Positions 8,482-33,426 of a stretch of 64,000 nt of DNA are shown piece after piece (the first letter of the stretch is position 1; the number at the start of each line of letters is the position of its first letter). The notes below the pieces were generated by a model. That model had not been told where the DNA came from. It ran no database searches and saw nothing but the letters and a program-made list of their open reading frames with translations. Source of the DNA: an uncultured Clostridia bacterium (GTDB lineage: Bacteria; Bacillota; Clostridia; Christensenellales; UBA1242); assembly GCA_944341445.1 (NCBI GenBank), contig CALVLZ010000004.1, positions 1 to 64,000 on the forward strand. Reading direction: 5' to 3'. The translations under genes and the position numbers were made by a program.

Positions 8482-8510
8482 AACACCATTTCTCCGATAA
8501 AATTTCTATT

Positions 8511-8550
8511 ATTTTATCATAAAACAAGTGCTATGTCAAACATATGTTCG
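8511..8550 (-). promoter_or_regulatory. Promoter with overlapping LexA-like (SOS) box for the HTH gene
   Basis: On the minus strand TTGACA (8534-8539), a 17-base spacer and TAAAAT (8511-8516) form a strong sigma-A promoter. CGAACATATGTTTG (8537-8550) overlaps the -35. It matches the Gram-positive LexA consensus CGAAC-RNRY-GTTCG at every defined position but one. LexA binding is inferred. Confidence 0.75.
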
Positions 8551-8554
8551 ATAA

Positions 8555-8581
8555 AAAGTAGAAGCATTAAACTTCTACTTT
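8555..8581 (-). terminator. Intrinsic terminator of the Asn-rich surface protein gene
   Basis: AAAGTAGAAG and CTTCTACTTT form a perfect 10-base stem with a 7-base loop, followed on the minus strand by a T-rich run. It overlaps the stop codon of the gene ending at 8575. Confidence 0.75.
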
Positions 8582-9864
8582 AATTTTGCAACATAAAAAT
8601 CTGTTTCTCCAAAGTTGTATTCAATTAGTTCATCAGTGTAAACAATATTACCAATAACGTAATAATTGTTATTTAAATAAACTAAATTATTTAAGTTATT
8701 ATTTAAACTTGCAGGCACTTTGAAAATAATATTGTTGTTTGGGGTAAAAGAATTTATAATGCTAAAGTTATAATTCATATTAGAATAGTAAACTAAAATA
8801 AAATTGCTGTTTTCATTTTTAATAAATTTTACGTTGTTTAAATTGTTAACTACTTCATAACTATATAAAAAATCTCCGTGCTTACAAAATTCTGTTATGT
8901 AACTTTTTAAATTGGAGTTGTATATAACATTAATAGAATTAACATTAATTATAATTTGTATTTCTGTGGCATCATTTTTTAAATTGTAGCAATTTAAAAT
9001 TTCTAGGCTAGGGCTTAGTGTAACAAATTGAATATATTTTAAATTGGTGTTTAATATTAAATATATATTATCAGCATAATTAAAATTAAGCATAGTTGCA
9101 TCTTCAAATTTTATTTCTTGTTTTAAATTGTTTGCATTGCAAATAGTAACATTTTCATTGTTGTTAATAATTAAATAAGGTTCGTTGTTTATTTGAATGA
9201 TGTTATGATTAATCATATTTGAATTATTTATTTGATTAATAAGTTCAAAATCTTTTAAATCAAGGCTGATTTTATATATATTAATCAAATTGTTGTTTAC
9301 GCTTGAAACGTAAATATAATTATTTATTAATATAATTTCTGAAGCCAAATTTTCATCTAATGTTAAAAATTTTTCAAATTGAAAATTGTTGCAATTAAAT
9401 TGCATAATTATACATTTTGTATTTGTGTTAATTAATGCAAAAATATTGTTTGAGTAGTTGAAACATTTAACAATATTAAATTGCTCATTAAAGTTTTTTA
9501 TTGCAATTTTTTCTGTTTTGCAATTTTCGTTAACTTGCATAACAAAAAGTGATTTTGTGCTGTTGTTATTGTTTTCAAAATATTCACTGTTTGAAAGTGT
9601 TTCGCCAACTAATAATATGTTGTTATTATAAGTTGTTGAAAATTTAACATTGTCGTTGTTTTTTCCACCAAAATTATTAAATATTGAAACATTTTCTAAG
9701 TTGGAAGTTTTTGCGTTTTCATAAACAAATTTTGTGTTTGAATTGTTGTTTTCATTAGAAGAATTTGAAATATTTGAAGTGCTAACATTAAAAACAAAAA
9801 ACAAACTAATTGAAATTGATAATAACAATATCACTGTTACATAAATAAAATAATTCTTTTTCAT
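8575..9864 (-). CDS. Secreted or membrane-anchored Asn-rich protein, propeller-like, unknown function
   Basis: 429-residue protein with a short basic start and a hydrophobic segment (about 6-27), acting as a signal peptide or N-terminal anchor. The rest has no further membrane segment. It is rich in Asn and consists of recurring short beta strands (patterns such as NNYYVIGNIVY, NNNIIFKVP, NNEPYLIINNN), suggesting a beta-propeller on the outer side of the membrane. No lipobox or enzymatic motif was seen. It stands alone between the HTH gene and murG, has its own terminator, and resembles the larger protein at 17554-20220 in style. Function unknown. Confidence 0.75.
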   Translation of the reverse strand: MKKNYFIYVTVILLLSISISLFFVFNVSTSNISNSSNENNNSNTKFVYENAKTSNLENVSIFNNFGGKNNDNVKFSTTYNNNILLVGETLSNSEYFENNNNSTKSLFVMQVNENCKTEKIAIKNFNEQFNIVKCFNYSNNIFALINTNTKCIIMQFNCNNFQFEKFLTLDENLASEIILINNYIYVSSVNNNLINIYKISLDLKDFELINQINNSNMINHNIIQINNEPYLIINNNENVTICNANNLKQEIKFEDATMLNFNYADNIYLILNTNLKYIQFVTLSPSLEILNCYNLKNDATEIQIIINVNSINVIYNSNLKSYITEFCKHGDFLYSYEVVNNLNNVKFIKNENSNFILVYYSNMNYNFSIINSFTPNNNIIFKVPASLNNNLNNLVYLNNNYYVIGNIVYTDELIEYNFGETDFYVAKLK

Positions 9865-17525: not shown

Positions 17526-17555
17526 AAAAAATGAAGTGTAAACTTCATTTTTTTT
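17525..17555. terminator. Bidirectional terminator between convergent genes
   Basis: AAAATGAAGT and ACTTCATTTT form a perfect 10-base stem with a GTAA loop flanked by A and T runs. It sits between the convergent stops at 17525 and 17554. Confidence 0.88.
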
Positions 17556-20220
17556 AATTTTCAATATTGTTTTTCTTTTTTAATATTAAGTAGAATGCAA
17601 CAATAATGCAGGTTATTAAAACAATTGCACTAATGATTAAAATTGAAACAATTAATAAGTTAGAGTTGTTGTTCATTTTTATATACTTTGTTTCAATATA
17701 GCCTTCTTTTAAATTGAAGTCTTTATCATAATAAGAAATTAATGTAAATTCTTCATTTTTATCGTAATTTTTAACGATTATTTTATAATCATCTGGCAAT
17801 TTATCAATTTCATATTTATCTGCCAAATTTGAGTTATAAATGCTAACTTCTTTCAAAGCGCCAGCAGTGAAAATGTGAGCATTAGATTGAATTGTGTTTG
17901 TAATTGGCACTTCACTTTGCGCTAAGCAATCGCTTTTATTAACATAACCAATTTTATCATCGTCATATTTTATTGCAAAAAATTCTGATTTTTCCATGCT
18001 ATCAATATTTTCACATATAACATAAATTGTTTCATTAATTGGAATTCTATTATTTAATATAAATGTTTTATTGTTTTGCTTTAGTAAAGTTGGGTATTTA
18101 TAAACTTTAACATTAATGTTTATTGCAATATATTCAATTGGTTCTCGAGTTTCATAATTTTTAATGTTTAAATTATCAGTTTTAACGTAACAATCAACTA
18201 AAGAATTGTTTTCATTAATTAAAACATATGAATAACCATTATATAAACTATTTAAAACAATCACAACATCTTCAACATTCAATTCGTAACTTTTTCCTGT
18301 GTTATAAGGGAATTGGTATGCATAACCAAATTGTTTTATTTTTGCAGTTTGTTCAATATTTGTTTTTGCATTTAAACTATATATATCTTCTGGGTGAGTG
18401 TATGAGTTCATACCATCATAAAAATCATTGTTTTTAACAATAATTAATTTGCTATCAACCTCATCAAAAGCAACAAATTTATCTTCTGATTTTATTATTG
18501 AAAAATGTGTTATTTTGTTGCTATTTTTAAAAGTGTATTTTAAAGCATTTTCTGTTTCATAGTTGTTTGAGTTTTGTAATTTAACAATCTCGTTATTATC
18601 TGTTAATAAATAAACGTTATTAAAATAATCATAAGAAATTTCTAAAACATTTGAAGCTAAATTAATCTCTTTAACTGTGTCTTGTTTTGTATCAACAAAT
18701 AATAGTGTGTTATCAATTAATAAAACTAAATTTTCATTGTTTAAAAGAGCAACGTCTTTAACGTTAGAAATATTGTAAGAATTTAATGAGTGTAATAAAA
18801 TTTTGTTAAATGTTAAAGTGCTATTATTCCATTTTGTTATAGCAGGAGATGTTTCGTTTGTATCTATTGCATAAACATCATCGTTATAACTAATTGCAAA
18901 TAATATATTTTTGCTGAATGTTGTTTTGTTGCTGCCATCTGTGAAATATTGATTAGAAATTCTTATTAAATCACCATTATTATTAAAAACTGAAATTCCT
19001 AAATCACTTGAAATAAATATATTTTTGTTGCTATTTATTCCAATTGAATTTGATGTTGTTGTTAAAAATTTAATGTTTTGTTCGTTGTTTATTTGAGAAA
19101 TTTCTTCATTTTTAACAATTTGCAATCTTTTGTTTCCTAAATCAGAAATATAAATTTCATTTTCTGTTTGAGCGTGAATTTTTGAAACATTGTAAAATCT
19201 GCCTAAATCATAACCAGATGAGGCAAACAATGTTTCTTTTTTTGTTGATTTATCAAAGAAGTAATCATCAGGTCCTTCTTTATATTCAAATTTTTGTATA
19301 CATTTTGAATTTGAATCTAAAACATATATTTCATTGTTGTAAATTTCAAAATCTGTGAATTGTGTAACTGTTCCTGTTTCAAATGTTGGAGTAGTGTGTG
19401 CATAGTTTTTGTTGTTACAAATAACTGTTAAAGCATTTTCAATTTCATCTTGAATGCTATAAGCTCTAAAATAAGAATCTTTGCTTGAAACAAACATTAT
19501 GTTTTTATTATTAATAACATTGGTTGTCATTTTTGTGATTAGTGGCGCATCAATATCTATAACTTTATAGTTGTATCTATTGTTAATCTCAATTCTAGTT
19601 AGGGTGTTTTGAGATGAAGTGTATTGTAAAACATAAAGATAATTTTTATCAATTGTTATTTTTTTACTTTTACCTGGTTCATCTATAATTTCGCAATTTT
19701 CCAAATTTATTTCGTTAGTGTCTTTAATAGATAAATTATTATCAGATAAAACTAATGTTGTTATTTGAACTTTGTTATCATTTTCATATGCTAACATAAG
19801 TTCATCGCCATAATCTTTTATTTCATAAATTTTTGCAATAAATTCATTTTGTAAATTAACTTTTGTTAAATCTGAATTATAAATTTTTATGTAGTTATCT
19901 TCAAGCAAGAATAGGTGATTTTTAGTTGCTGTTAAACTTGAAGGATTTGTTAATGAAATAACTCTTTCTTCCTTTGTTTCATTAAAAGTGTATAATCCAT
20001 CAGTTTTTAAATAATATATTTTATCGTTTAAAACTGCAAAATCAGAAACTCCTTCCAAATTTAAATAAGCGTTATTGTTTAAACTTATTGTTTTTTCATA
20101 ATTTTTAGGTTGTTCATTATTTATTGCTTGCACCTTAAAACAAGAAAAATATGCTAAAAGGAATGTAGCACAAATTGATAATATAAAACCATATAATACC
20201 AAACTAATTTTATTTTTCAT
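17554..20220 (-). CDS. Large surface protein: signal peptide, propeller-like repeats, SH3-like modules, C-terminal anchor
   Basis: 888-residue exported protein of unknown function. A signal peptide lies at about 1-32. Residues about 45-620 are repeats of short beta strands with NHL/propeller character (for example YNNEIYVLDSNSKCIQKF, NEIYISDLGNKRLQI). Residues about 640-845 hold SH3-like modules (YSYVLINENNSLVDCYVKT, FFAIKYDDDKIGYVNKSDC, YIETKYIKM). One membrane segment (about 855-880) and a short Lys-rich tail end the protein. So it is a type I membrane protein with a long extracellular part. It has its own promoter and shares its anchor/SH3 plan with the 261-residue protein at 21092. A cell-surface sensing or wall-binding role is only a guess. 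Confidence 0.78.
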   Translation of the reverse strand: MKNKISLVLYGFILSICATFLLAYFSCFKVQAINNEQPKNYEKTISLNNNAYLNLEGVSDFAVLNDKIYYLKTDGLYTFNETKEERVISLTNPSSLTATKNHLFLLEDNYIKIYNSDLTKVNLQNEFIAKIYEIKDYGDELMLAYENDNKVQITTLVLSDNNLSIKDTNEINLENCEIIDEPGKSKKITIDKNYLYVLQYTSSQNTLTRIEINNRYNYKVIDIDAPLITKMTTNVINNKNIMFVSSKDSYFRAYSIQDEIENALTVICNNKNYAHTTPTFETGTVTQFTDFEIYNNEIYVLDSNSKCIQKFEYKEGPDDYFFDKSTKKETLFASSGYDLGRFYNVSKIHAQTENEIYISDLGNKRLQIVKNEEISQINNEQNIKFLTTTSNSIGINSNKNIFISSDLGISVFNNNGDLIRISNQYFTDGSNKTTFSKNILFAISYNDDVYAIDTNETSPAITKWNNSTLTFNKILLHSLNSYNISNVKDVALLNNENLVLLIDNTLLFVDTKQDTVKEINLASNVLEISYDYFNNVYLLTDNNEIVKLQNSNNYETENALKYTFKNSNKITHFSIIKSEDKFVAFDEVDSKLIIVKNNDFYDGMNSYTHPEDIYSLNAKTNIEQTAKIKQFGYAYQFPYNTGKSYELNVEDVVIVLNSLYNGYSYVLINENNSLVDCYVKTDNLNIKNYETREPIEYIAININVKVYKYPTLLKQNNKTFILNNRIPINETIYVICENIDSMEKSEFFAIKYDDDKIGYVNKSDCLAQSEVPITNTIQSNAHIFTAGALKEVSIYNSNLADKYEIDKLPDDYKIIVKNYDKNEEFTLISYYDKDFNLKEGYIETKYIKMNNNSNLLIVSILIISAIVLITCIIVAFYLILKKKNNIEN

Positions 20221-20282: not shown

Positions 20283-20350
20283 ATTTAAATCAATAATTAA
20301 CTGAAATTTTTAATTTTATAATTTTGGAAATTTATGGCATATAATTTGAT

Positions 20351-20387
20351 TTATAGACAAACTGTTGTACAGAAATGTAGTCTATAA
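20351..20387. repeat. Dyad symmetry upstream of the virion-cassette regulator
   Basis: TTATAGAC (20351-20358) and GTCTATAA (20380-20387) are exact inverted 8-mers separated by 21 bases. The right arm contains the -10-like TATAAT next to the LexA-like box. It could be an operator or a recombination or hairpin remnant. Confidence 0.5.
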
Positions 20388-20402
20388 TCAAACAAACGTT
20401 CG
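20383..20402 (+). promoter_or_regulatory. LexA-like (SOS) box abutting a -10 element
   Basis: TATAAT (20383-20388) is directly followed by CAAACAAACGTTCG (20389-20402), which fits the Gram-positive LexA consensus CGAAC-RNRY-GTTCG with one mismatch. A repressor there would cover the start point. A good -35 is not obvious. The same one-base deviation occurs in the box at 8537-8550. Confidence 0.7.
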
Positions 20403-20431
20403 ATAAAATATTTAAAATTATATCATTTTCG

Positions 20432-20466
20432 ACATTTTTTTACAAAAATATACATTTTTTACAAAA
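20432..20466. repeat. Direct repeats before the regulator promoter
   Basis: ACA-T7-ACAAAA (20432-20447) and ACA-T6-ACAAAA (20452-20466) are spaced 20 bases start to start, about two helical turns, and end 15 bases before the -35 of the downstream promoter. This is the geometry of an activator or repressor pair. Confidence 0.5.
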
Positions 20467-20481
20467 TTGTGTCATAATGTT

Positions 20482-20510
20482 TTGATTTTTGAAAAATGCT
20501 ACTTTATAAT
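20482..20510 (+). promoter_or_regulatory. Promoter of the cassette regulator gene
   Basis: TTGATT (20482-20487), a 17-base spacer and TATAAT (20505-20510), 41 bases before the regulator start at 20552. Confidence 0.65.
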
Positions 20511-20551
20511 GTGTAAAAGTTTGTGCGAAAATGATATGGGAAGGAGAAAGA

Positions 20552-21097
20552 ATGGAAATGAAAAATTGGGCAAAAACATTTTTAGGAGCGTATAGATGTT
20601 TGGAAACGATTTCAAACGCAATTGATGATTTAGTTAAAAAAGAAAGTATTAATTCTGGATTTTATAATTCATCAACAAACACTTTAGAGCAATTTAACAA
20701 AATATCAAAATTAACAGAAAGAAAAATAAAAATTATTAATATTAAAGTTTTGGTTGAATATGCGCTTGCTAATTTAAAAAATTCAGAAACAAGGCTTTTA
20801 ACTTTGTTTTATATAGATGAAGTAAAATCAAAAGATATTGCTTTAAAATTGGGGATTAGTAATAGAACTTTTTTTAGGAAAAAGAATGAGGCACTTTCAC
20901 ATTTTTCAACAAAATTAATTGAAAAGGGTTATAACTTAAACAGAATATTGGAATTAGTTGATGGTGAAAATTGGTTGCAAGTTGCATATAAACAAAATTT
21001 GCAAAAAGATTCAGATGATTTATTTAATTTGCAAAGATTAAAATTAATTAACTATGCAATAAAAGAAATTAAAAAAAATAAATTTGCGTATTTATAA
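20552..21097 (+). CDS. Sigma-region-4-like HTH regulator of the virion cassette
   Basis: 181-residue DNA-binding protein. Residues about 80-130 form a sigma-70 region 4-type helix-turn-helix (SETRLLTLFYIDEVKSKDIALKLGIS then RTFFRKKNEALSHF), as in phage late-gene activators of the ArpU/RinA kind; regions 1-3 of a full sigma factor are missing. The open frame begins at 20531, but AAGGAG at 20541-20546 fits the ATG at 20552. Two promoter elements and a LexA-like box lie upstream. It is the only regulator inside the cassette and is therefore the inferred switch for the capsid operon that starts at 22001. It overlaps the stop of the convergent 261-residue gene by 6 bases. Confidence 0.78.
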   Translation: MEMKNWAKTFLGAYRCLETISNAIDDLVKKESINSGFYNSSTNTLEQFNKISKLTERKIKIINIKVLVEYALANLKNSETRLLTLFYIDEVKSKDIALKLGISNRTFFRKKNEALSHFSTKLIEKGYNLNRILELVDGENWLQVAYKQNLQKDSDDLFNLQRLKLINYAIKEIKKNKFAYL

Positions 21098-21877
21098 ATT
21101 TTCATCGTAAAAATTGTTAGAATCAACAATTTGAATGTTTTCTTTTGGGTTAACTTTAACTTTTTTAAAATTATTATTAGGTTTATACATTAAATATAAA
21201 ATAATAACAGCAGGTATTAAAGTTAAAAAAATAATTAATAAGCAGTTAAAATTGCTTAACGGATTAAAAGTTTTTGTGAAAGTGTTATATAAATTTGTTA
21301 CTTTTTCAGTGTTTGGATAAATTGCGTTTAAGTTTGTTGTGTATTTTGAATATATATAACCAATAGTATCGTTATATTTAGCTAAATACCAAACATTACC
21401 ACCAAAATCAACAACTTCTTCGCCAAAAATTTTTCCTAAATATGTTAACGATTTTGTGCCTTTGTTTATTGTGATAATAATATTTGTGTTTATAACTTCT
21501 GGTGATGATCTTAAATAACAATTATTTAAATCATAAACATCAAATTTTATATTTGTTGGAAATGGAACCATTGGTGTTTCATTAACAAGTTCAACATCGG
21601 AACAAGAAACATAGCCAACTAAATCTAAATAATTAACCTTATAACAAATCTCGTTTGTTTTACTTAAAATTTCAACGAAGTATGTTTTTTCAAGTAAACA
21701 AATAACATTATTATTTCCATTAGATAATTCTGCACTTTTATATAGATAAGTGTTAGAATTTTTTATTTGCGCATAAATTTTGTCGCTTGCATTAACTTTA
21801 TCAAAATTAAAATTAACTAAAAGCACATTAAAAATTAAAACAAACAAAAATGCAGTTGTGTAAAAAATTTTTTTCAT
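21092..21877 (-). CDS. Membrane-anchored SH3-like surface protein inside the cassette
   Basis: 261-residue exported protein. It has a signal peptide (about 1-30), two SH3-like modules (about 33-105, with VNYLDLVGYVSCSDVEL, and about 110-185, with YLRSSPEV and WYLAKYNDTIGYIYSKYT), a membrane segment (about 203-225) and a polar cytoplasmic tail. The C-terminal plan matches the 888-residue protein at 17554-20220, so the two may be paralogues in part. It is on the opposite strand to the phage genes, between the regulator and the terminase. Either it is a host gene caught in the locus or a surface component that works with the particles. No catalytic motif seen. Confidence 0.75.
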   Translation of the reverse strand: MKKIFYTTAFLFVLIFNVLLVNFNFDKVNASDKIYAQIKNSNTYLYKSAELSNGNNNVICLLEKTYFVEILSKTNEICYKVNYLDLVGYVSCSDVELVNETPMVPFPTNIKFDVYDLNNCYLRSSPEVINTNIIITINKGTKSLTYLGKIFGEEVVDFGGNVWYLAKYNDTIGYIYSKYTTNLNAIYPNTEKVTNLYNTFTKTFNPLSNFNCLLIIFLTLIPAVIILYLMYKPNNNFKKVKVNPKENIQIVDSNNFYDENL

Positions 21878-22000
21878 AAAAAACTCTCTTAAACTTTTCT
21901 TTAATTATAATATTATATTTTGTTTAATTGTATTAAAAATTTTGCCTAATTTTTTATAGTTTTATACATATTTTAATAACTTTGTTAAAAGGAAAATTAA

Positions 22001-23449
22001 ATGAAAAAAAATAATAAAAAAAATATTTTAATGCGTTTGAACAATGTTTGTAGTGAATTGGTAAATAGAAAAAAGAACGATTTTTTAAGTTATTATAACA
22101 CCGGCAAAGTTGTTCACTTAAAACAATTAGAGTTTCATAAATGCACTGCAAAAAACAGATGGGTTTTTGGTGGAAACAGAAGTGGTAAAACAGAGTGTGG
22201 CGCAGTTGAAACTGTGTGGTTGGCACGAGGAATACATCCGTATAAACAAAATAAGAAAAATGTTAGTTGTTGGGTTGTTAGTTTGTCAACACAAGTTCAA
22301 AGGGATGTTGCTCAAAGTAAAGTTCTGCATTATTTAAAAAAAGAGTGGATAGAAGAAATTGTTATGTTGCAAGGCAAAAAGGGCTCTCCAGAACTTGGTA
22401 TTATTGATTATATAACAATTAAAAATGTATTTGGTGGCACAAGCAGAATTGGTTTTAAAAGTTGTGACCAAGGAAGAGAAAAATTTCAGGGCACGAGCTT
22501 AGATTTTGTTTGGTTTGATGAAGAACCACCATATGATATTTATTTAGAATGCAAAATGAGAGTTATTGATAAGTGCGGCGAAATTTTTGGAACAATGACT
22601 CCGCTAAAAGGTTTAACGTGGGTTTACAACGAAATATACCTTAACAAATTTAAGGATAAAAATGTTTGGCATATTCATATGAATTGGTACGATAACCCAT
22701 ATTTAAATAAAACTGAAATAGAAGATTTAGAACATTCATTATCAAAGGAGGAGCTTGATGCAAGATGTTATGGTTTATTTTCTGCTAATGGTGGTGTTGT
22801 TTATACTGAATTTGATGAAAATGTGAATGTTATAAAACCTTTTAATGTTCCATTAGAGTGGTATGACAAAATTAGCGTTGACCCAGGATTGAATAATCCA
22901 TTATCAGCACATTGGTATGCTTGTGATTATGATGGAAACGTTTACGTTATTGCAGAACATTTTGAAGCACATAAAGATATTGAATATCACGCAAACAAAA
23001 TTATTTCAATTTGCAAACGTTTAAATTGGCCAAGTGGTTTTGGTGGTAAATATGAAATTTTAATAGATAGTGCTGCCAATCAAAAAACTTTAGCAAGCAC
23101 AAAAAGTGTTACAGAATTATTTTATGATTATGGTATTTATGCTAACCCCAATGTAAATAAAAACTTGTTTGCAGGTATTAATAGAGTGAAAAGTTATTTA
23201 AAAAATGCAAAAGGTGTTACTAAATTATTTATATTTAACACGTGCGTAAATTTGATTGAGGAAATTAAAACATATTATTGGGGAGAAAACGATGTGCCTG
23301 TTAAAAAAGATGATCATGCACTAGATGAATTAAGATACTATATAATGTCTAAACCTGAATTTGCCAAAGTGGAAGAAGTTAAAACAATTATTCAAAAAGA
23401 TAAAGAAAAAAGAATAAGGAAATTAAAATATAGTAAAAAATATATTTAA
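22001..23449 (+). CDS. Phage terminase large subunit
   Basis: DNA-packaging motor of 482 residues. The N-terminal ATPase has Walker A GGNRSGKT (57-64), Walker B-like LDFVWFDEEPP and the coupling motif FGTMTPLKG. The C-terminal RNase H-like nuclease shows the metal-binding acids in ISVDPGLNN, ILIDSAAN and DDHALDELRYY. All key residues are present, so the enzyme looks active. This is the first gene of the rightward structural operon, 123 bases after the divergent surface-protein start; AAAAGG precedes the ATG. No clear small terminase with an HTH is next to it. Confidence 0.93.
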   Translation: MKKNNKKNILMRLNNVCSELVNRKKNDFLSYYNTGKVVHLKQLEFHKCTAKNRWVFGGNRSGKTECGAVETVWLARGIHPYKQNKKNVSCWVVSLSTQVQRDVAQSKVLHYLKKEWIEEIVMLQGKKGSPELGIIDYITIKNVFGGTSRIGFKSCDQGREKFQGTSLDFVWFDEEPPYDIYLECKMRVIDKCGEIFGTMTPLKGLTWVYNEIYLNKFKDKNVWHIHMNWYDNPYLNKTEIEDLEHSLSKEELDARCYGLFSANGGVVYTEFDENVNVIKPFNVPLEWYDKISVDPGLNNPLSAHWYACDYDGNVYVIAEHFEAHKDIEYHANKIISICKRLNWPSGFGGKYEILIDSAANQKTLASTKSVTELFYDYGIYANPNVNKNLFAGINRVKSYLKNAKGVTKLFIFNTCVNLIEEIKTYYWGENDVPVKKDDHALDELRYYIMSKPEFAKVEEVKTIIQKDKEKRIRKLKYSKKYI

Positions 23450-23463
23450 GTTTTTGTCACATA

Positions 23464-23506
23464 TTGTTGAATTATTGTTTTTATATATAATATTATTGTC
23501 ACAAAG
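23464..23506 (+). promoter_or_regulatory. Candidate internal promoter with ATTGTCAYAAAG motif
   Basis: TTGTTG (23464-23469), 16 bases, TATAAT (23486-23491), then ATTGTCACAAAG (23495-23506), in the gap after the terminase. A near-identical motif occurs at 27948-27959 after the capsid gene. Confidence 0.45.
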
Positions 23507-23516
23507 GTGATATAAA

Positions 23517-23843
23517 ATGGTAAATAAAAACATATTAAAAACCAAAAAGGTTAAAATTGAAAATACCGAAGCGGATGAAAAAAACTTAATAAATGTTTTA
23601 ATGAAAAAGGCTGTTGGATATTCCGTAACAGAAACACAAGAGGAATATAGCGTGGTTGATAATAATCTAGAATTAACAAAAAGAAAAGTTAGCACAAAAT
23701 ATTATCCGCCAGATTTTTCAGCAATTTCTATGTTATTAGAAAAGTTAAATTTAGAAGAAACTTGCATTGATAATATGAGTACGGAAGAATTGGAAACCGA
23801 AAAAAACAGACTGTTAAATTTGTTAAAAAAATACGAGGAGTAA
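23517..23843 (+). CDS. Small terminase-associated phage protein
   Basis: 108-residue protein between the terminase and portal genes. The core (MKKAVGYSVTETQEEYSVV, then LTKRKVSTKYYPPDFSAISMLLEKL) resembles short proteins and terminase-small-subunit C-termini from clostridial phages, in which a lysine-rich KRKVxxK-xPPD stretch precedes a helix. A DNA-binding HTH, expected for a full small terminase, is not evident. It may be the packaging-specificity partner or a reduced version of it. The end is acidic and helical (LETEKNRLLNLLKKYEE). GGTGA precedes the ATG. Confidence 0.65.
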   Translation: MVNKNILKTKKVKIENTEADEKNLINVLMKKAVGYSVTETQEEYSVVDNNLELTKRKVSTKYYPPDFSAISMLLEKLNLEETCIDNMSTEELETEKNRLLNLLKKYEE

Positions 23844-23846
23844 TTT

Positions 23847-24014
23847 ATGAGAGTTATAAAAAAACAAAAAAATATGGTATGTAATAATCCAAATTGTAAA
23901 AATAAAGTTGAAATTGAAATTAATATTGGTGAAAACCAATATGAAGATAATTTATTTATTTGCAAAGATTGTGCGAAACAATTAGTTAAAGAAATTAATA
24001 AAAATTTAAAATAA
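23847..24014 (+). CDS. 55-residue zinc-ribbon-like peptide
   Basis: Short frame with ATG at 23847, three bases after the preceding stop and six after GAGGAG, ending TAA at 24014. It has two cysteine pairs (C-NNPN-C and C-KD-C) separated by about 21 residues, which fits one zinc-binding ribbon, in a Lys/Glu-rich chain. It is coupled between the terminase-associated gene and the portal gene. Function unknown; nucleic-acid binding during packaging is a guess. Confidence 0.7.
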   Translation: MRVIKKQKNMVCNNPNCKNKVEIEINIGENQYEDNLFICKDCAKQLVKEINKNLK

Positions 24015-24028
24015 AAAAGTAGGTGCAT

Positions 24029-25951
24029 ATGAAAAATAACAAAACAATATTAAAGTTCAAGTTAAATAAAAATAATAAAGATAACTTAGATGAAGAGTTA
24101 GTTAATAGTGTTATTGAAGATTTTAAAGAAAGACAACAAAAAAGAAAAAGTTTTGAAACAAGTTGGAAACTTAATTTAAATTTTGTTGTTGGGAATCAAT
24201 ATTGTGGAATTAATGGAAATAATGATGTTGTAAATTATGACAAACAATTCTATTGGCAGGAAAAAGAAGTTTATAACCATATTGCTCCACTAATTGAATT
24301 AAGATTAAGTAAATTATCACGTGTTAGACCAACAATGGCTGTAGTTCCTTTTTCAGATGATGAAAATGATGTTGAATGTGCAAAAATTAGTAAAAATATT
24401 TTAAAGGCAACTAGTTACAAATTGAACTTAAGCAAAATTATCTCACAAGCAACTGAGTGGAGTGAAATTTGCGGAACATCTTTTTATAAAATTTTTTGGA
24501 ATTCTAAAGCAGGAAGTGTTGTTGGAAAAACTGAAGATGGTGAAAATATTTATGAAGGAGATATTGATATTTCCGTTGTTAATCCTTTTGAAATTTTTCC
24601 AGATAGTAATAGTTACGAAAATGTTCAAGATTGTGAAAGTATAATACACGCAAAATGTTATTCTGTTAGCGATATTAAAAGCATTTGGGGAGTTGATGTT
24701 GAAGGCGAAGAGTTAGATATATTTACTTTTGAAAACACAAATTCTGTTGGTGGTTTGGGCTATTCAACAACTGCAAAAACTGCAAGTAGTCAAGTTAAAA
24801 AAGATACTGCAATAGTTTTAGAAAAATATGTTAAACCAACGTGTGAATTTCCAAACGGAAGGCTGATAATTGTTGCTGGAAATAAACTTGTGTTTAATGG
24901 TGAATTGCCATTTAATAATTTAGAAAATGAACAAAGGGGCTATCCTTTTATTAAGCAATGTAGCATTTTTGTTCCAAGTTGTTTTTGGGGAAACAGTGTT
25001 GTTGAAAGGTGTATTCCAATTCAAAGAGCATATAACGCAGTTAAAAACCGAAAACATGAATTCTTAAACAGATTATCAATGGGTGTTTTAGCCGTTGAAG
25101 ATGGTTCAGTTGACACTGAAAATTTAGAAGAAGAAGGTTTATCTCCTGGCAAAGTGTTAATATACAGACAAGGTAGTAATATTCCAAAAGAAATTTCTAG
25201 TGGCAGTGTTCCTATGGATTTTACTTATGAAGAAGAAAGATTATTAAATGAATTTATAACAACAACCGGTGTTAACGATTTGCTTAACAACACAACAAGT
25301 AATTCTAACATTAGTGGTGTTGCATTACAATTATTAATTGAACAAGATGAAGCAAGATTGTTAAGTTCAGCCGAAGAAATTAGAGAAAGTGTTAAAGAAC
25401 TTTCTAAACATATTTTAAGATTGTTTAAACAATTTGCAATTGCTTCACACGCATCAAAACTAATTGGAGAAAATGGAAGTGTTGAAATGTTTTATTGGTC
25501 CAATGCGGATATAACAAGTGATGAAGTTATATTTGAAACTGAAAATGAACTTAATGAAAGTTTGGCTCAGAAAAGAAGTATGATTTTTGAAATTTTAAAT
25601 TCTGGATTGTTGCACGATGAAAATGGGAAATTAAGCAACTCAATGCGCTACAAAGTTTTAGAACAATTAGGCTTTGGCGTTTGGGATAATTCGCAAGATT
25701 TAAAAGCTTTGCAAAATAAAAAAGCAATAAAAGAAAACTTTAAATTATTAGAGAAAAAATCAATAGATATTCCTAATGAAATTGATGATCATGACGTGCA
25801 TATTCAAGCACACACTTGTTTTATGTTGGGTGAAGAATTTGAAAAGGCAAAAGTTAAAAATTCAATTATAGAACAAATTATGATTAATCATATTAAAGAA
25901 CATAAAAATTTAAAACTAATTGCTACTGCTGAAAATCAAGTTGAAGTATAA
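24029..25951 (+). CDS. Phage portal protein, P22-like
   Basis: 640-residue portal, forming the dodecameric DNA gateway at the capsid vertex. The order KTSWKLNLNFVVGNQY-like start, EVYNHIAPLIELRLSKLSRVRP, TEWSEICGTSFYKIFWN, DISVVNPFEIFPD, and RAYNAVKNRKHEFLNRL is typical of P22-type portals of Firmicutes podovirus-like cassettes. The C-terminal third is helical and charged. The start at 24029 was preferred over GTG 24023, which lies in the AGGTG ribosome site. Length is within the P22-like range (650-730). Confidence 0.88.
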   Translation: MKNNKTILKFKLNKNNKDNLDEELVNSVIEDFKERQQKRKSFETSWKLNLNFVVGNQYCGINGNNDVVNYDKQFYWQEKEVYNHIAPLIELRLSKLSRVRPTMAVVPFSDDENDVECAKISKNILKATSYKLNLSKIISQATEWSEICGTSFYKIFWNSKAGSVVGKTEDGENIYEGDIDISVVNPFEIFPDSNSYENVQDCESIIHAKCYSVSDIKSIWGVDVEGEELDIFTFENTNSVGGLGYSTTAKTASSQVKKDTAIVLEKYVKPTCEFPNGRLIIVAGNKLVFNGELPFNNLENEQRGYPFIKQCSIFVPSCFWGNSVVERCIPIQRAYNAVKNRKHEFLNRLSMGVLAVEDGSVDTENLEEEGLSPGKVLIYRQGSNIPKEISSGSVPMDFTYEEERLLNEFITTTGVNDLLNNTTSNSNISGVALQLLIEQDEARLLSSAEEIRESVKELSKHILRLFKQFAIASHASKLIGENGSVEMFYWSNADITSDEVIFETENELNESLAQKRSMIFEILNSGLLHDENGKLSNSMRYKVLEQLGFGVWDNSQDLKALQNKKAIKENFKLLEKKSIDIPNEIDDHDVHIQAHTCFMLGEEFEKAKVKNSIIEQIMINHIKEHKNLKLIATAENQVEV

Positions 25952-25973
25952 AAGTTGGGGGAAATGTTAATTT

Positions 25974-26729
25974 ATGCAAGAAAACAATATTATTGGAGAA
26001 CAACCTAAAATTGATTCTAGCCAAGTTGCGGAGGCAAATAATATAGATTTAGCGGGTGAAAAAGAACAATCAGGCTCTCCATTTGGTAAATTTAAAAATG
26101 CAGAATCGTTATTTGAGGCTTATAATAATTTGCAAAGTGAATTTACTAGAAAATGCCAAAAAGTTAAAGAATTAGAATTAAAATTGAACGATAATTTATC
26201 TGTTAACAGTGATTTAACTGAAAATATAAGTGAAAATATAGTTAAAAATATTAAAAATAACAATGAAAATAGTGTTGATGAAAATTTGTACAAAAATAAC
26301 ACTGAGAATCAGGAAACAGATAAACCGCAATATTTAAATTCAGATTGGCAAACTAATGTGGCAGAATTTATAAAAAACAATCCAGATGCAAAACAATTTG
26401 CAAAAGAAATTTCAGATGTTTTAATAAATAATAAGGAAATAGCAAATTTAAAAAATGCTTTAGATATTTCTTATGCAATGGTTTTAAGCAAAAAGTACAA
26501 GCCGGCAGAAGTGCTTTTAAATGATGAAGATTTTATAAATTCACAAATTCTATCTAATGAAAATTTAAAGAATAAAATAATTAGTAATTACATAAAACAA
26601 GTCTCACAACAAAAAGTTCCACCTATTATTTCAAAAACTAGTGGTTCTTACTTTGGATTACAAAAAAATATTCCTAAAAGTTTAGAAGACGCTAAAAAAC
26701 AGGCGGAACAATTATTTACTAAACTATGA
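25974..26729 (+). CDS. Phage scaffolding protein
   Basis: 251-residue acidic, helical protein directly before the capsid gene, the classic scaffold position. The pattern FGKFKNAESLFEAYNNLQSEFTRKCQKVKELELKL near residues 40-75 is common in scaffold proteins of clostridial phage cassettes. A disordered Asn/Glu-rich centre and a helical, basic-ended C-terminus (ISKTSGSYFGLQKNIPKSLEDA) follow, which would bind the coat protein. The GGGGGA ribosome site is about 12 bases from the ATG, wider than usual. Confidence 0.82.
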   Translation: MQENNIIGEQPKIDSSQVAEANNIDLAGEKEQSGSPFGKFKNAESLFEAYNNLQSEFTRKCQKVKELELKLNDNLSVNSDLTENISENIVKNIKNNNENSVDENLYKNNTENQETDKPQYLNSDWQTNVAEFIKNNPDAKQFAKEISDVLINNKEIANLKNALDISYAMVLSKKYKPAEVLLNDEDFINSQILSNENLKNKIISNYIKQVSQQKVPPIISKTSGSYFGLQKNIPKSLEDAKKQAEQLFTKL

Positions 26730-26739
26730 GGTATAAAAA

Positions 26740-27918
26740 ATGGTTACTTTAAAAACAGCAGAAAATGCATTAAAAGATGTATATTTGGGTGTTGTTGCAA
26801 ACCAATTGAATGATAACGCAAACCCACTTTTATCAAAAATTAAACAATCAACATCTGATGTTTGGGGTAAAGAAATTAGAAAGATGGCTCCATATGGATT
26901 AAATGGTGGTGTTGGTGCTGGTTCAGAAAATGGTGCTTTACCAAAGTCTGGAGAAAATAATTATGTTCAATTTGTAACAACATTAAAAAACTTATTTGGA
27001 ACAATTGAAATTACAGATAAAGCAATAAGAGCAAGTGAACACAATTCTGGTGCGTTTGTTAACTTACTAAATGCAGAAATGGAAGGATTAATTAAGGCAA
27101 GTTCTTTTAACTTGGGTCGTATGTTATATGGCGATGGAACTGGTTTATTGTGTTCTATTTCTGAATGCAATGTTGGTCAAAAATATTTCACTGTTGATTC
27201 AACAAGAAACTTAATGGAAGGCATGATTGTTGATATGGTCGAAGTGGATGGCATAACAAAAGATGAAGAATTTTTAGGTAGAAGAATTACAGCTATTGAT
27301 AGAACAACAAAAACTGTTTATGTTGATAGGGCTTATAATTCAGAATTATTGCCAGATGATAAACTATGTATTCAAAATAGTAATTTAAAAGAAATAACAG
27401 GTCTTGGAGCTATATTTGGAGATTCAATTAGTTTATATGGTGTTAATAGGGCTCAAAATCCTTGGTTAAAACCATATTCTAAAACTTCTATTGGAGAAAT
27501 TAATGATATTGTTATTCAAGAAGCGATTGATTCTTTAGAAGAAGTTTGCGGAAGCAATATTGACTTTATAACTTGTTCAAGTGCAGTTAAAAGAATGTAT
27601 CAAAAATATCTTGGAGAGTATAGAAGAAATGTTGACGTTCTTGAGTTAAAAGGTGGCTATAAAGCAATATCATACAACGGAATACCATTAATTTCAGATA
27701 GATTTGTTGAAGAAGATACTATGTATTTATTAAATACTAAAGATTTCACAATTCATCAATTATGTGATTGGCAATGGCTTGAAGGTGATGATGGAAGAGT
27801 TATTAAACAAACTCAAGGTTATCCAACTTACACAGCAACTCTTGTAAAATATTGCGATTTAATTTGCGACAGACCAAACGGACAAGCAAAACTTTCTGGA
27901 ATAACACAAGGTGCTTAA
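26740..27918 (+). CDS. Phage major capsid protein
   Basis: 392-residue capsid protein, inferred HK97 fold, found right after the scaffold. The start (LKTAENALKDVYLGVVANQLN), VWGKEIRKMAPYGLNGGVGAG, SSFNLGRMLYGDGTG and the late ISDRFVEEDTMYLLNTKDFTIHQLCDWQWLEGD region match coat proteins of clostridial podovirus-like prophages. No protease gene is present, in keeping with a scaffold-dependent P22-like system. A strong terminator 56 bases downstream suggests that most transcripts end here, giving the excess of coat protein that assembly needs. Confidence 0.88.
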   Translation: MVTLKTAENALKDVYLGVVANQLNDNANPLLSKIKQSTSDVWGKEIRKMAPYGLNGGVGAGSENGALPKSGENNYVQFVTTLKNLFGTIEITDKAIRASEHNSGAFVNLLNAEMEGLIKASSFNLGRMLYGDGTGLLCSISECNVGQKYFTVDSTRNLMEGMIVDMVEVDGITKDEEFLGRRITAIDRTTKTVYVDRAYNSELLPDDKLCIQNSNLKEITGLGAIFGDSISLYGVNRAQNPWLKPYSKTSIGEINDIVIQEAIDSLEEVCGSNIDFITCSSAVKRMYQKYLGEYRRNVDVLELKGGYKAISYNGIPLISDRFVEEDTMYLLNTKDFTIHQLCDWQWLEGDDGRVIKQTQGYPTYTATLVKYCDLICDRPNGQAKLSGITQGA

Positions 27919-27947
27919 TGTTATTTATTTACAACAAATAATGATAT

Positions 27948-27970
27948 ATTGTCATAAAGTATAATATAAA
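27948..27970 (+). promoter_or_regulatory. Second ATTGTCAYAAAG motif with TATAAT
   Basis: ATTGTCATAAAG (27948-27959) followed by TATAAT (27960-27965), in the gap after the capsid gene. It differs from the motif at 23495-23506 by one base of twelve. It may be a binding site for the cassette regulator. Confidence 0.4.
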
Positions 27971-27974
27971 TATC

Positions 27975-28010
27975 AATTGCGAGCACTTTTGTGTTCGCAA
28001 TTTTATTTTT
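27975..28010 (+). terminator. Strong intrinsic terminator after the capsid gene
   Basis: AATTGCGAGCAC and GTGTTCGCAATT form a 12-base stem with one G-T wobble and a TTTT loop, followed by TTATTTTT. It lies between the capsid gene and the tail genes on the same strand. Confidence 0.85.
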
Positions 28011-28028
28011 AAAAGGTGGCAATTATAA

Positions 28029-28391
28029 ATGAAAATAATTAAAAAAGATGTTTTTAATATTGCAAAAAGATTACGAAATATAAATAAAAACTATGTGATT
28101 GTTTTTAATGAAAAATTAAAGAAATATGAAATAAGATTTAAAAACAGTTTTGATAATTTTGTTTTACATATTCCCAATAATGAGTTAAACAAATTGGTTA
28201 TTGATTATGTTTTTAAAACAAGCAACATTGATGAAGTTATAAATGAAATTGAAAAAAATAATAATGATATGGAAAATTCATTTAATGCAAAAATTAAAGA
28301 TGAATCAACTTATAAGTTAAAAGAAATACATAAATATGCAAACAGTGGTTCAAAAGAATTTATTGGTGGATTTAAAACAAATTGGATATAA
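28029..28391 (+). CDS. Small phage protein downstream of capsid gene
   Basis: 120-residue protein of a type often found just after capsid genes in clostridial phages. The first half (DVFNIAKRLRNINKNYVIVFNEKLKKYEIRFK) has an alpha-beta pattern recalling small proteins with the consensus RLxxIDxNYFIVxN. The second half is a charged helix with an SGSKEFIGGFKTNWI end. Function unknown; a minor head or assembly protein is the simplest guess. It begins 18 bases after the terminator tail with AAGGTGG as ribosome site. Confidence 0.6.
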   Translation: MKIIKKDVFNIAKRLRNINKNYVIVFNEKLKKYEIRFKNSFDNFVLHIPNNELNKLVIDYVFKTSNIDEVINEIEKNNNDMENSFNAKIKDESTYKLKEIHKYANSGSKEFIGGFKTNWI

Positions 28392-28400
28392 GGAGGTAGA

Positions 28401-28979
28401 ATGGAAGTTATTTCAATTATAAAATTAGTTGCAACTTATTTACAATTGGATGATTTATTAAATGATGTATTATTAGGTGGTTCAAACGAAACAAATGAAG
28501 AAAATCAAAAAGAAATAAACTTATTAGTTTCTTGTGTTAACCTTTGTAATAATATTGTTGCAACAGACTATATACCATTAACTAGAACTTCGGTTATTAA
28601 TAATAGTAACGGAATAATACCTATTGATTCTGTTGACAATGGTAACAAAACAATTTATGAAATATTAAATGTTAAAAACAAATTTGATGAATCACAGGTT
28701 TTTAAAATTGTTGGAAATGATATTAAAACTGTTAAAGGATTTATTCAAATAAATTATTCTTATTTTCCAGATAGTGTTGAATTAGATTCTATAATTAGTT
28801 GTTACTTAACAAAACTAACAGATAGAATATTTGCTTATGGTGTTGCTTGTGAATATTGTTTTATTAAAGGAATGTATGATGATGCTAGTATGTGGGATGC
28901 AAGATTTAAAGATTCAATGAAAACAATATGCAGACCAAAGAAAAATATAACTATTCCTGCAAGGAGTTGGAATAAATGA
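28401..28979 (+). CDS. Probable head-tail connector (gp4-like adaptor)
   Basis: 192-residue, mostly helical protein in the place of the P22 gp4-type tail accessory factor, before the tail hub. It carries a helical N-terminus (IIKLVATYLQLDDLLNDVL), a short beta region, and helices ending in YDDASMWDARFKDSMKTICR. Sequence identity to a named connector is not recognisable by eye, so the call rests on position, size and predicted fold. AGGAGG precedes the ATG; the stop overlaps the next start (ATGA). Confidence 0.62.
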   Translation: MEVISIIKLVATYLQLDDLLNDVLLGGSNETNEENQKEINLLVSCVNLCNNIVATDYIPLTRTSVINNSNGIIPIDSVDNGNKTIYEILNVKNKFDESQVFKIVGNDIKTVKGFIQINYSYFPDSVELDSIISCYLTKLTDRIFAYGVACEYCFIKGMYDDASMWDARFKDSMKTICRPKKNITIPARSWNK

Positions 28980-30478
28980 TTTTAAACAATAACCTAATAA
29001 AAACAAAATCTATTAATTACAACAAGGTTAGTTATGCAACTTTTGAATATGGATTAAACACTGATTATGACGAAAACTTAACACCAATTAAATATTCACG
29101 AAACACATATAATTTTAATTTTAGTTCTGGCTCTTTAAAAACAGGATTGGGAATTGAACCACTTAAAATTTATATAAATCCAAGATTAAACGATGAAGAG
29201 CGTGAATTTAGAATGCCAGACTCTGATGTTTTAGGAATTTGGATGTTGAAAGATAAATTTGGAAATATTGAAAATTTTTATAATATATTAGCAATTTATT
29301 GTTCTGATAAATATGTAAAATATGCAATTATGTATGCTAATACTGTTGGCTTTGCTGAAACAGGTTTAAAATGTCAAACTTTACCAAATGTTAGTAATTA
29401 TTTTTTAAATGGAAAAAATGTTTTAATTTTTACTTCGTCAGAAGATCCTATGTATATTTTTGCTGCAGATTTTAACGACATTCAAATTATTTATGATGCT
29501 CCAAACATTACAAATATGTGTGTGCATAGCGAAAGATTATTTGCCACAGTTGAACTTGAAAATGATGTTAGAAATGAAGTTTGGTTTTCTGATGATTTGG
29601 ACCCAACGAATTGGAATGTTAGTTCAACAGAAGCTGGTTTTATTAAAATGGTTGATGAAAGGGGAAGTTTAAACACAGTTATTTCTTTTAATAATTATAT
29701 CTATATTTTTAGAGATTACGGAATTACAAGATTAACCGCATATGGAGAACAATCGGAGTTTAATTTAAGCCATATATATTTAACAAGCTCTAAAATTATA
29801 TCTAAAACAGTTACGGTTTGTGGCGATAGAATTATGTTTGCCACTAAAGATGAAATATTTGCATTTGATGGGTTAAATGTTAGCAGTGTTAATTTAAAAA
29901 TTAAAAATATGCTTAATGTTAATGATAACAGTGTTGGTGCTTTTCATAATGGTAAATATTATCTTGCAACAAAATTGAATTTTAACGATGATGAAAAGAT
30001 TGGTTGTGAAAATGAAGAAAATTTTATTAATAATGCATTATTAGAATATGATATAAAAACGGGTAATATTGAAATTTTAAGAGGAGTTGATATTTGTAAT
30101 TTAAATGCAATTAATGACGAGTTTGTTTCAAAACTTGCAATTTGTATTAAAAGAGATGGGAAGTATGTTTTGGGACAATTAACCCATTCAGGAACTGTTT
30201 TTGGCGAACCAACAACAAAAATGTGGAAGTCTCCGTTAAGTGATTTTGGTTATCCTAATTTAACAAAAATAGTTAAGGAAGTTTATGTTAAAACTAGTGC
30301 AGATTTTGAATTAATAATAGAAACAGAAAAAAGTGTAAAAAGCATACCTGTTAAAGCTAAAAAGGGTGTAACAAAAATAAAAACTTTTGTTAAAGGCGAA
30401 CTAATTGCGTTAAGTTTTAAGTCGGATAAAGCAGAAATTCAAATTTCCGACCCACAGGTGGTGGTTGGTTTATGTTAA
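28976..30478 (+). CDS. Tail hub or nozzle-like virion protein
   Basis: 500-residue beta-rich protein in the place of the P22 gp10/T7 gp12-type tail hub that closes the portal channel. Repeated strand-turn units such as LFATVELENDVRNEVWFSDDLDP, YIYIFRDYGITRLTAYG and DRIMFATKDEIFAFDGL indicate a beta-propeller, as in such nozzle proteins. The assignment is by order and fold. It overlaps the previous gene by 4 bases and the next by 7, showing tight translational coupling. Confidence 0.7.
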   Translation: MILNNNLIKTKSINYNKVSYATFEYGLNTDYDENLTPIKYSRNTYNFNFSSGSLKTGLGIEPLKIYINPRLNDEEREFRMPDSDVLGIWMLKDKFGNIENFYNILAIYCSDKYVKYAIMYANTVGFAETGLKCQTLPNVSNYFLNGKNVLIFTSSEDPMYIFAADFNDIQIIYDAPNITNMCVHSERLFATVELENDVRNEVWFSDDLDPTNWNVSSTEAGFIKMVDERGSLNTVISFNNYIYIFRDYGITRLTAYGEQSEFNLSHIYLTSSKIISKTVTVCGDRIMFATKDEIFAFDGLNVSSVNLKIKNMLNVNDNSVGAFHNGKYYLATKLNFNDDEKIGCENEENFINNALLEYDIKTGNIEILRGVDICNLNAINDEFVSKLAICIKRDGKYVLGQLTHSGTVFGEPTTKMWKSPLSDFGYPNLTKIVKEVYVKTSADFELIIETEKSVKSIPVKAKKGVTKIKTFVKGELIALSFKSDKAEIQISDPQVVVGLC

Positions 30479-31683
30479 ATGAAAACAATAATAAAGTTTT
30501 ATTTAGCAATAATTTAGATATTGAAACAATAAAACTAAAATTATCTAATTCAAATATATCAGAAAAAATGCTATCATTTTCCAATATTAACTTAAAAACA
30601 AATGAAGAATACTGTGTGAATTTTGAAGCAATAAAAAATTCAAGAATAATTGTTTCGTTAAACTTTCTTAAAAGTGAAGAAGCTTTAAATGCTGTTATTT
30701 CAATAAAATTTAACGATATGGAAGTTTGCAATTTAAAAAATCTTGTGCTTGGTGAAAATGCATATGAAGAAAAATTATTTTTAATTTGCAAAGATTTATA
30801 TAACAAAATAAGCGTTGTTTCAAGTGTTGATTGCGAAATGAAACTTGAAATTTTGGGCTTTATTAATTCAATTGAAAATAACAAATTCTTAATTGTTAAA
30901 AATAACGCAGTTCCTTTAGTTTTAACAGTTTTAAATAATGTTTTTTCTAGTTTTCAATCGGATACAATAGATAATTTATTATTAAATTATTCGGTTGGTA
31001 AAAATAACGCAAACTTTACATTTAACAATGCAGTTTCTTATGGGTATATCTTTAACAAAAATAATGATAAGTTTGAATTTAATAATTTTTATTATTTAAC
31101 AAAAAATCAAGCAGGTTACACAGTACATAATAATAACACTAGCTTTTTTATTCATACAGGTTTTGTTTATGATAAAGTTGTTTTATTAAACGTAAACTAT
31201 GAAAATTTTTCATATTTAGCAATTTTCGTTGATGAAAATAATAACGTGAAATATTGTTTTACTAGTGAAACTGCTGGTGTTGATGATGTTTTAAAAGGCG
31301 ATTTAAAATTTAAAAACAATTTTGGAAAAATTATAAATTTTGTTCCAATATTATATGAAACATTTAATGAAAAATATTTATATGTTTCTTTTACTAATCA
31401 AAATAAAGAACTTCATTATTTTAAAATAAATATTGAGGATATTATAGAAAACGAACCAATTAGTACTGCCTATGTAGATAAAGCAGATTATTTCAATATA
31501 ACTTTTTCTAATAGCAATATGATAATTTTTGCAACCAAAAATAACTATGTTAAAAAAATTGTTATAGATAACTTTACTAAAACAAAAACCGAAATTAAAA
31601 CATATTACAATATGCAATATGGAATTTCGTTTTTTGGAGAAGATTTATTGGTGAACAAAAATTCTTTAATAAAGGTAAATTAA
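30472..31683 (+). CDS. Beta-rich virion-associated protein, unknown
   Basis: 403-residue protein between tail hub and coiled-coil genes. It has no signal peptide or membrane segment and consists largely of alternating beta strands with aromatic residues (for example SYGYIFNKNNDKFEFNNFYYLT, YLYVSFTNQNKELHYFKI). By position it could be a tail appendage, host-recognition protein or needle-associated protein, but I recognise no family. It overlaps both neighbours (TAATG at the end), so it belongs to the structural operon. Confidence 0.6.
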   Translation: MLNENNNKVLFSNNLDIETIKLKLSNSNISEKMLSFSNINLKTNEEYCVNFEAIKNSRIIVSLNFLKSEEALNAVISIKFNDMEVCNLKNLVLGENAYEEKLFLICKDLYNKISVVSSVDCEMKLEILGFINSIENNKFLIVKNNAVPLVLTVLNNVFSSFQSDTIDNLLLNYSVGKNNANFTFNNAVSYGYIFNKNNDKFEFNNFYYLTKNQAGYTVHNNNTSFFIHTGFVYDKVVLLNVNYENFSYLAIFVDENNNVKYCFTSETAGVDDVLKGDLKFKNNFGKIINFVPILYETFNEKYLYVSFTNQNKELHYFKINIEDIIENEPISTAYVDKADYFNITFSNSNMIIFATKNNYVKKIVIDNFTKTKTEIKTYYNMQYGISFFGEDLLVNKNSLIKVN

Positions 31684-32699: not shown

Positions 32700-32701
32700 T
32701 T

Positions 32702-32989
32702 ATGTGGAATAAAATTGTAGATTTAGCAATTAATAACGGATTATGGGCAGTTTTGTTTTTAATTTTATTAATTTATGAATTAAGAGATAGCAGAAAAAGG
32801 GAAGTTAAATATCAACAAACAATAGAAAAACTTTCCAGCAATTTTGATATTTTAAAAGATGTTAATGAAAATGTTAAAACAATTAAAGAAAAAGTTGTAA
32901 ATAAATCAACAGAATTAAGTTCATCAAAAATTAAATTGGTTGCTAAAAAATCTAAAAAACAAGATGAAGATTTTAAAAGAGAGGCATAA
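32702..32989 (+). CDS. BhlA/UviB-like holin-type protein
   Basis: 95-residue protein with one N-terminal membrane segment (NGLWAVLFLILLIYELRDS, about 11-29) followed by a charged helix and a lysine-rich tail. This matches BhlA/UviB proteins, which are linked to holins and bacteriocin release. It follows the coiled-coil gene by 2 bases and precedes a second holin-like gene. A membrane anchor for another cassette product is an alternative. Confidence 0.7.
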   Translation: MWNKIVDLAINNGLWAVLFLILLIYELRDSRKREVKYQQTIEKLSSNFDILKDVNENVKTIKEKVVNKSTELSSSKIKLVAKKSKKQDEDFKREA

Positions 32990-32990
32990 T

Positions 32991-33293: not shown

Positions 33294-33314
33294 ACTTAAT
33301 AATCTTTGTTTTAT

Positions 33315-33339
33315 GAGGCGAAAATTTCGCCTCTTTTTT
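33315..33339 (+). terminator. Terminator closing the virion cassette
   Basis: GAGGCGAA and TTCGCCTC form a perfect 8-base, GC-rich stem with a 3-base loop, followed by TTTTTT. Confidence 0.9.
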
Positions 33340-33426
33340 AGTAATAAACACAAAATTTAATTTGATAACTAAAACAAATATTGTATAATGAATGCGTATA
33401 ACGTTTAAAAATATATAGGTGGTTAT

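Follow-up and report, generated by a model that had tools for sequence, protein, structure and literature searches.

A conserved, probable LexA operator at the promoter of a sigma-like regulator preceding a phage-derived packaging cassette in Clostridia

Organization of the regulator and cassette locus

The window analyzed here, a 64,000-nucleotide stretch of DNA from an uncultured Clostridia bacterium, is part of contig C4 of a 1.03-Mb genome in 13 contigs; several close relatives come from animal gut samples. The gene at 20552–21097 (+) encodes a 181-residue DUF1492 protein with a sigma-70 region-4-like helix-turn-helix, a presumed activator of the particle genes (hereinafter designated the regulator). 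Translation probably begins at the ATG at 20552, behind a good ribosome-binding site, and not at 20531. The protein meets the gathering cut-off of DUF1492 (PF07374; 29.7 bits versus 21.5, E 7.4e-7) and does not meet the curated cut-off of ArpU (TIGR01637; 24.8 bits versus 43.1). Its AlphaFold model (pLDDT 83) shows the sigma-like fold through a local match to sigma region 4 (probability 1.00, rmsd 1.3), and also matches phage DUF1492/sigma-like proteins over a wider extent. A full-length fold match was rejected: among solved structures, the sigma region-4 part alone matches. The regulator is likely to be a phage-type sigma-like activator of the capsid and packaging genes, the activation itself being inferred. 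No shared element that the regulator might bind was seen in the sequences upstream of the terminase operon.

To the right of the regulator lie a conserved gene of unknown function (21092–21877, −), the large terminase subunit (TerL; 22001–23449, +), a probable small terminase subunit (TerS; 23517–23843, +; phrog_309, E 1.3e-5), a P22-like portal protein (24023–25951, +) and the major capsid protein (26740–27918, +; phrog_14242, E 2.5e-57). The cassette ends at 31683–34377 (+) with a DUF7934 protein, a BhlA-type holin (32702–32989) and a cassette-end gene (33427–34377), followed by the host RNase J. Most relatives have a homologue of the minus-strand gene at this position and in this orientation; it is present between regulator and terminase in nearly all of them, even though it runs against the cassette. 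The gene at 30472–31683 (+) is the only one in the cassette without a detectable homologue in 80 relative regions, and its product could conceivably be a fast-evolving specificity protein. On the other side of the regulator, a propeller-type gene (17554–20220, −) flanks the cassette in many relatives; this gene and the one at 8575–9864 (−) encode large propeller-like proteins, the first with a weak NHL match and the second with no Pfam family.

The synteny of the cassette is shown: tens of genomes keep its gene order, frequently with ssb and RNase J on either side. TerL identity among the relatives is 55–76%, and the TerL tree leaves all 18 multi-genome genera intact (17 changes, the minimum). 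Third codon positions diverge 2.5–5 times more than first positions, indicating purifying selection. The correlation between RecA and TerL distances (Mantel r 0.29) is too weak to serve as proof of vertical descent, and the genus-level test and synteny were used instead.

Several relatives depart from the common arrangement. In genus g34 (G058, G079) and in G089, regulator and capsid gene are tens to hundreds of kb apart (~40 kb in g34), and in genus g36 (G035, G060, G080) the regulator, minus-strand gene, terminase and last gene are the only ones recognized before RNase J. In one relative the major capsid gene is duplicated in tandem (G001:C2:8035-10367). An IMG/VR ‘virus’ contig (L200, IMGVR_UViG_3300032167_004817) has ssb, the propeller gene, regulator, terminase and capsid lined up as in the window, and is probably a segment of bacterial chromosome misfiled as a virus.

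A layered promoter region upstream of the regulator

The regulator is preceded by two putative promoters. The distal one (P1) has a –10 hexamer TATAAT (20383–20388, +) and, in the window’s genome, no good –35 element. Directly abutting this hexamer is the 14-bp sequence CAAACAAACGTTCG (20389–20402, +), which differs from the consensus CGAAC-RNRY-GTTCG at one position. A second such sequence, CAAACATATGTTCG (8537–8550, −), overlaps the –35 element (TTGACA) of a small HTH_11 gene (8170–8481), and both boxes carry A for G at the second base. The sequence-only reading had claimed a LexA-like box beside a TATAAT with one mismatch to the Gram-positive consensus, and the same deviation at 8537–8550; both claims held.

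Just upstream of P1 lies a degenerate copy, recognized by eye, of a TGACA-N5-8-TGTCA palindrome (AGACAAACTGTTGTAC; 20355–20370, +). This palindrome is found in 18 of 43 boxed promoters at that position versus 3 of 736 background windows, and is likely the site of an unidentified second factor, an inference made from sequence alone.

The proximal promoter (P2; TTGATT, 17 nt, TATAAT; 20482–20510, +) has no LexA box, and its position is kept in relatives as judged by eye. Upstream of it stand two identical TTTTTTACAAAA elements (20436–20447 and 20455–20466, +), 19 nt apart; the corresponding TTTTGTAAAA/TTTTACAAAA motif occurs in 36 of 79 regulator promoters versus 4 of 314 upstream regions of other genes. 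A Spo0A-box-like sequence, TGTCGAAAA (20426–20434, −), lies nearby. A Spo0A gene is present in the window’s genome, and TGTCGAA occurs in 17/79 regulator promoters versus 3/314 other upstream regions; this enrichment test is crude, and Spo0A control of P2 is no more than a possible hypothesis.

The two-promoter plan is common to relatives by eye, in keeping with the earlier claim of layered promoter control. No terminator was found between P1 and the regulator start codon. An inverted repeat of 12 bp without mismatches (20420–20431/20526–20537) flanks P2 and forms the predicted hairpin of the P1 leader, which folds better than shuffled sequences (energy z –2.7). No counterpart of this hairpin was recognized in relatives by eye, and no function is read into it.

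The box matches the operator of the genome’s own SOS genes

With two mismatches allowed, the loose consensus of the sequence-only reading has 5 matches in the window (both strands of near-palindromes counted) versus 1.6 ± 1.6, a number reached in 6 of 100 shuffles. As sole evidence it was rejected, being near chance level in the window, and a weight matrix from lexA promoters was used instead. This matrix, CRAACAWWTGTTYG, was derived from 27 lexA promoters of the window’s genome and its relatives and holds ~21 bits over 18 columns; its 14-column core was used for scoring, and no regulator promoter was among its input. The sites at 20389–20402 and 8537 score 19.0 and 21.1 bits, respectively, and are exactly the two sites in the window that reach 17 bits, where a Markov simulation expects 0.15. 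The motif is essentially the clostridial operator GAAC-N4-GTTT, already known (PMC4234289), an apparent departure from the Bacillus box. The deviation that the sequence-only reading had suggested to be lineage-specific is for the most part this ordinary clostridial form.

The window’s genome encodes both lexA (TIGR00498; 216 bits versus a cut-off of 111) and, 12 kb from it, recA. Their promoters hold AGAACAAATGTTTG and AAAACATATGTTTG, and a domain search returned a single LexA DNA-binding-domain match in this genome. A genome scan with a degenerate pattern followed by matrix scoring, which could miss rare boxes outside the pattern, found eight boxes of at least 16 bits. Every one lies at the 5′ end of a gene: lexA, recA, recN, ruvC, uvrB, the HTH_11 gene, a zeta-toxin-like ATPase gene and the cassette regulator. 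The remaining sites fall inside genes and score at most 15.1 bits. The regulator site accordingly matches the operator at the same genome’s lexA, recA and other repair genes, and the sharing of this motif is shown. The sequence-only reading had staked its claim on a lexA gene in the genome and on boxes before other SOS genes, both of which were found.

Two further genes carry such boxes. At the locus 8170–8550 (−), the gene for an HTH_11-only protein of 103 residues lies beneath the highest-scoring LexA box of the genome; box and domain together suggest a small DNA-binding protein under SOS control, whose role is unknown. At the gene assigned by eye to a zeta-toxin-like ATPase, a 17.6-bit box spans the start codon (L204:1576-1589; G000:C4:129976).

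Conservation of the box at the promoters of regulator homologues

Of 148 genomes of the family and order, 98 carry a homologue of the regulator, with rarely more than a single match in any of them. A box of at least 10 bits is present in 46 of the 79 usable upstream regions versus 4.2% of dinucleotide shuffles, and one of at least 12 bits in 40 of them versus 1.6%. The 1.25 Mb of sequence around regulators holds 45 boxes of at least 14 bits; 37 are within 330 bp upstream of the regulator, with two further boxes at –337 and –342. Nine other cassette or flanking genes, including the terminase, portal, capsid, minus-strand gene and RNase J, have 0–1 upstream boxes of at least 12 bits each. A –10-like hexamer abuts the box on its upstream, regulator-transcribing side in 31 of 45 cases and on the other side in 3 of 45 (background 10.7%). 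Such a position against the –10 element is the usual one for an operator.

Conservation and placement of the box are shown, and phylogenetic footprinting removes the doubt that the single site had left. We hold with high confidence that the box at 20389–20402 is a genuine LexA operator at which LexA blocks the distal promoter of the regulator until DNA damage relieves the block; LexA binding and induction are inferred, in the absence of binding or expression data. About one third of lexA-positive genomes lack a recognizable box (e.g., the three genomes of genus g14), indicating that the link between LexA and the regulator is not universal.

Absence of lexA and absence of the box

A box of at least 8 bits is present in 44 of 62 lexA-positive genomes versus 4 of 17 without detectable lexA (Fisher p 0.0006, uncorrected for descent). 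The four exceptions that keep the box are G029, which also lacks recA, and G044, G083 and G084, which are 77–89% complete and have lexA-positive congeners. We ascribe these four to incomplete assemblies, albeit on a judgement reached after the data were seen. In ten other family members without lexA the box is absent in all ten, and the TTTTACAAAA elements are kept in 5 of 10 versus 31 of 69 other genomes. Among the lineages with split or reduced cassettes, lexA was not found in the searched genomes of g34 and g36.

On the TerL tree there are 5–6 well-supported independent lexA/box pairs, almost never in the wrong direction, and a sign test is not significant. Strict co-loss statistics on the tree were accordingly set aside: the direction is right, but independent pairs are too few for significance. 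Lineages that have apparently lost lexA lack the box for the most part, an association resting on few independent events.

Alternative explanations

The alternative that survives best, although we consider it unlikely, sees in the cassette an ordinary or decaying prophage, not domesticated, that uses host LexA. Every recognizable cassette gene is of phage type, RecA and TerL distances agree only weakly, and a LexA-controlled phage is known, namely GIL01 of B. thuringiensis (PMC6182141). Other LexA-controlled temperate phages also exist. Against this reading, nearly every carrier genome has one match, and ssb and RNase J are the neighbours in many of them; the TerL tree is genus-faithful at the minimum number of changes, and the genes are under purifying selection. 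No integrase or replication gene was found among the scanned genes of 20552–34377. No phage record reaches 60% TerL identity (the best rows listed have 27–30%), despite the 55–76% identity among relatives, and the capsid gene of g34 is far removed from the regulator.

It is very unlikely that the operator is real but serves the divergent propeller-type gene rather than the regulator. The start of that gene is 169 bp left of the box, and it adjoins the regulator in a number of relatives. However, the –10-like hexamer is strongly biased towards the regulator-facing side (31/45 versus 3/45), and boxes persist where the propeller neighbour was not found (e.g., G075, G042, G066 and G025).

We give equally little credence to a different LexA/cI-like repressor, encoded elsewhere, as the protein that binds the box. 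Several relatives do carry a second S24 protein resembling LexA, but the box has the motif found at lexA, recA, recN, ruvC and uvrB, and the domain search returned one LexA DNA-binding-domain match alone in the window’s genome. Lastly, a chance match in an AT-rich genome, to which the near-chance count of the loose pattern in the window and the simulated 3.75 sites of at least 16 bits per genome lend some support, is all but excluded because of the footprint across 79 homologues and the control regions; only a systematic artefact could revive it.

A proposed SOS-controlled circuit for a GTA-type element

Our preferred reading remains that of a LexA operator acting on the regulator of a domesticated cassette. 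GTAs are defined by tailed-phage-derived proteins, residence in the host genome, often at several loci, mostly vertical inheritance, and packaging and delivery of random host DNA (PMC9662315). The first feature is met by the terminase, portal and capsid, and full host-genome residence by the ssb and RNase J neighbours in many relatives together with the split loci in g34. For vertical inheritance, genus-level fidelity is perfect, but the RecA–TerL Mantel r is merely 0.29. The cassette is likely a podovirus-like element of GTA type that has long resided in its hosts and passes mainly by vertical descent; particle production and host-DNA packaging are inferred, and we have no particle data.

In the circuit that we propose, LexA bound at 20389–20402 would cover the start region of P1 and block it. 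DNA damage would then give rise to RecA filaments and LexA self-cleavage, as in established LexA biology, and P1 would open. The sigma-region-4-like regulator (20552–21097) would be made and would switch on the genes for terminase, portal, capsid and holin that lie to the right, while P2, with conserved sites of its own and no LexA box, would provide a separate input. The host SOS repressor would stand in for a phage repressor in the wiring of the cassette. The sequence-only reading had claimed as much, and this is supported by the absence of any cI/Xre-type repressor among the scanned genes of 20552–34377. Its claim that the box ties the particle regulator to DNA damage is likewise supported, by the family-wide conservation and the –10 placement, with induction and particles still inferred.

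We infer that DNA damage likely triggers particle production in a family of small-genome gut Clostridia. A bolder reading, towards which we lean only slightly, is that the dedicated activator of a GTA carries a LexA operator and so links the GTA directly to the host SOS regulon, and that most genera of the family have retained this wiring, which disappears where lexA does. If so, gut conditions that damage DNA, some antibiotics among them, would trigger host-DNA packaging family-wide. What switches GTAs on is an open question outside a few alphaproteobacteria, and GTAs of Gram-positive bacteria are a very recent discovery. LexA acting on the activator itself would be a simple and testable trigger that predicts damage-released packaged host DNA in a widespread gut family, and the joint loss of lexA and box provides a natural experiment on regulatory domestication.

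Comparison with known systems

Among Gram-positive elements, PBSX of B. subtilis is damage-inducible and GTA-like (PMC12946183), and resembles the present cassette in being Gram-positive and GTA-like, with damage induction inferred here. PBSX is controlled by its own Xre-type repressor and is made as myovirus-like particles; by contrast, the present cassette is podovirus-like and would answer to host LexA. FpGTA of Faecalibacterium is a chromosomal podovirus-like terminase, portal and capsid operon of ~10 kb without replication genes, for which particles have been observed (PMC12946183). The likeness is that of a podovirus-like packaging and capsid cassette in gut Clostridia and does not imply kinship; LexA control is not described in the sections of PMC12946183 that bear on it.

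The phage late activators of DUF1492, ArpU and RinA type share with the regulator the sigma region 4 fold class and a position just before the terminase genes. The present regulator differs from the ArpU/RinA type in falling below the ArpU cut-off and in its inferred control by host LexA instead of a phage repressor cascade.

In the alphaproteobacterial GTAs of R. capsulatus, D. shibae and C. crescentus, the SOS response or LexA is likewise linked to GTA production. A LexA site is predicted at the GTA cluster of D. shibae (PMC6473078); in R. capsulatus, the effect of LexA is indirect, by way of cckA, and RcGTA production is inefficient without LexA (PMC6363796; PMC6473078); and Caulobacter RogA is LexA-like without the cleavage residues (PMC9632790). 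The bearing sections of PMC6473078, PMC6363796 and PMC9632790 contain no family-wide LexA operator on a dedicated activator.

Mechanistically, the nearest case is SigN (ZpdN) of the B. subtilis plasmid pBS32, a sigma-type regulator with a LexA-repressed SigA promoter, from which DNA damage lifts the repression, and further promoters (PMC6751061). Both are sigma-type genes with additional promoters on a phage-like element, LexA repression being inferred for ours. SigN, however, is plasmid-borne and has been shown in one species, and it acts on plasmid genes and causes cell death, seemingly without driving the structural genes of the prophage (PMC6751061), whereas the present cassette is chromosomal and family-wide and its regulator adjoins the packaging genes. 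What is probably new here, with LexA binding inferred, is that host LexA would act straight at the activator of a cassette that is family-wide in Clostridia and probably GTA-like.
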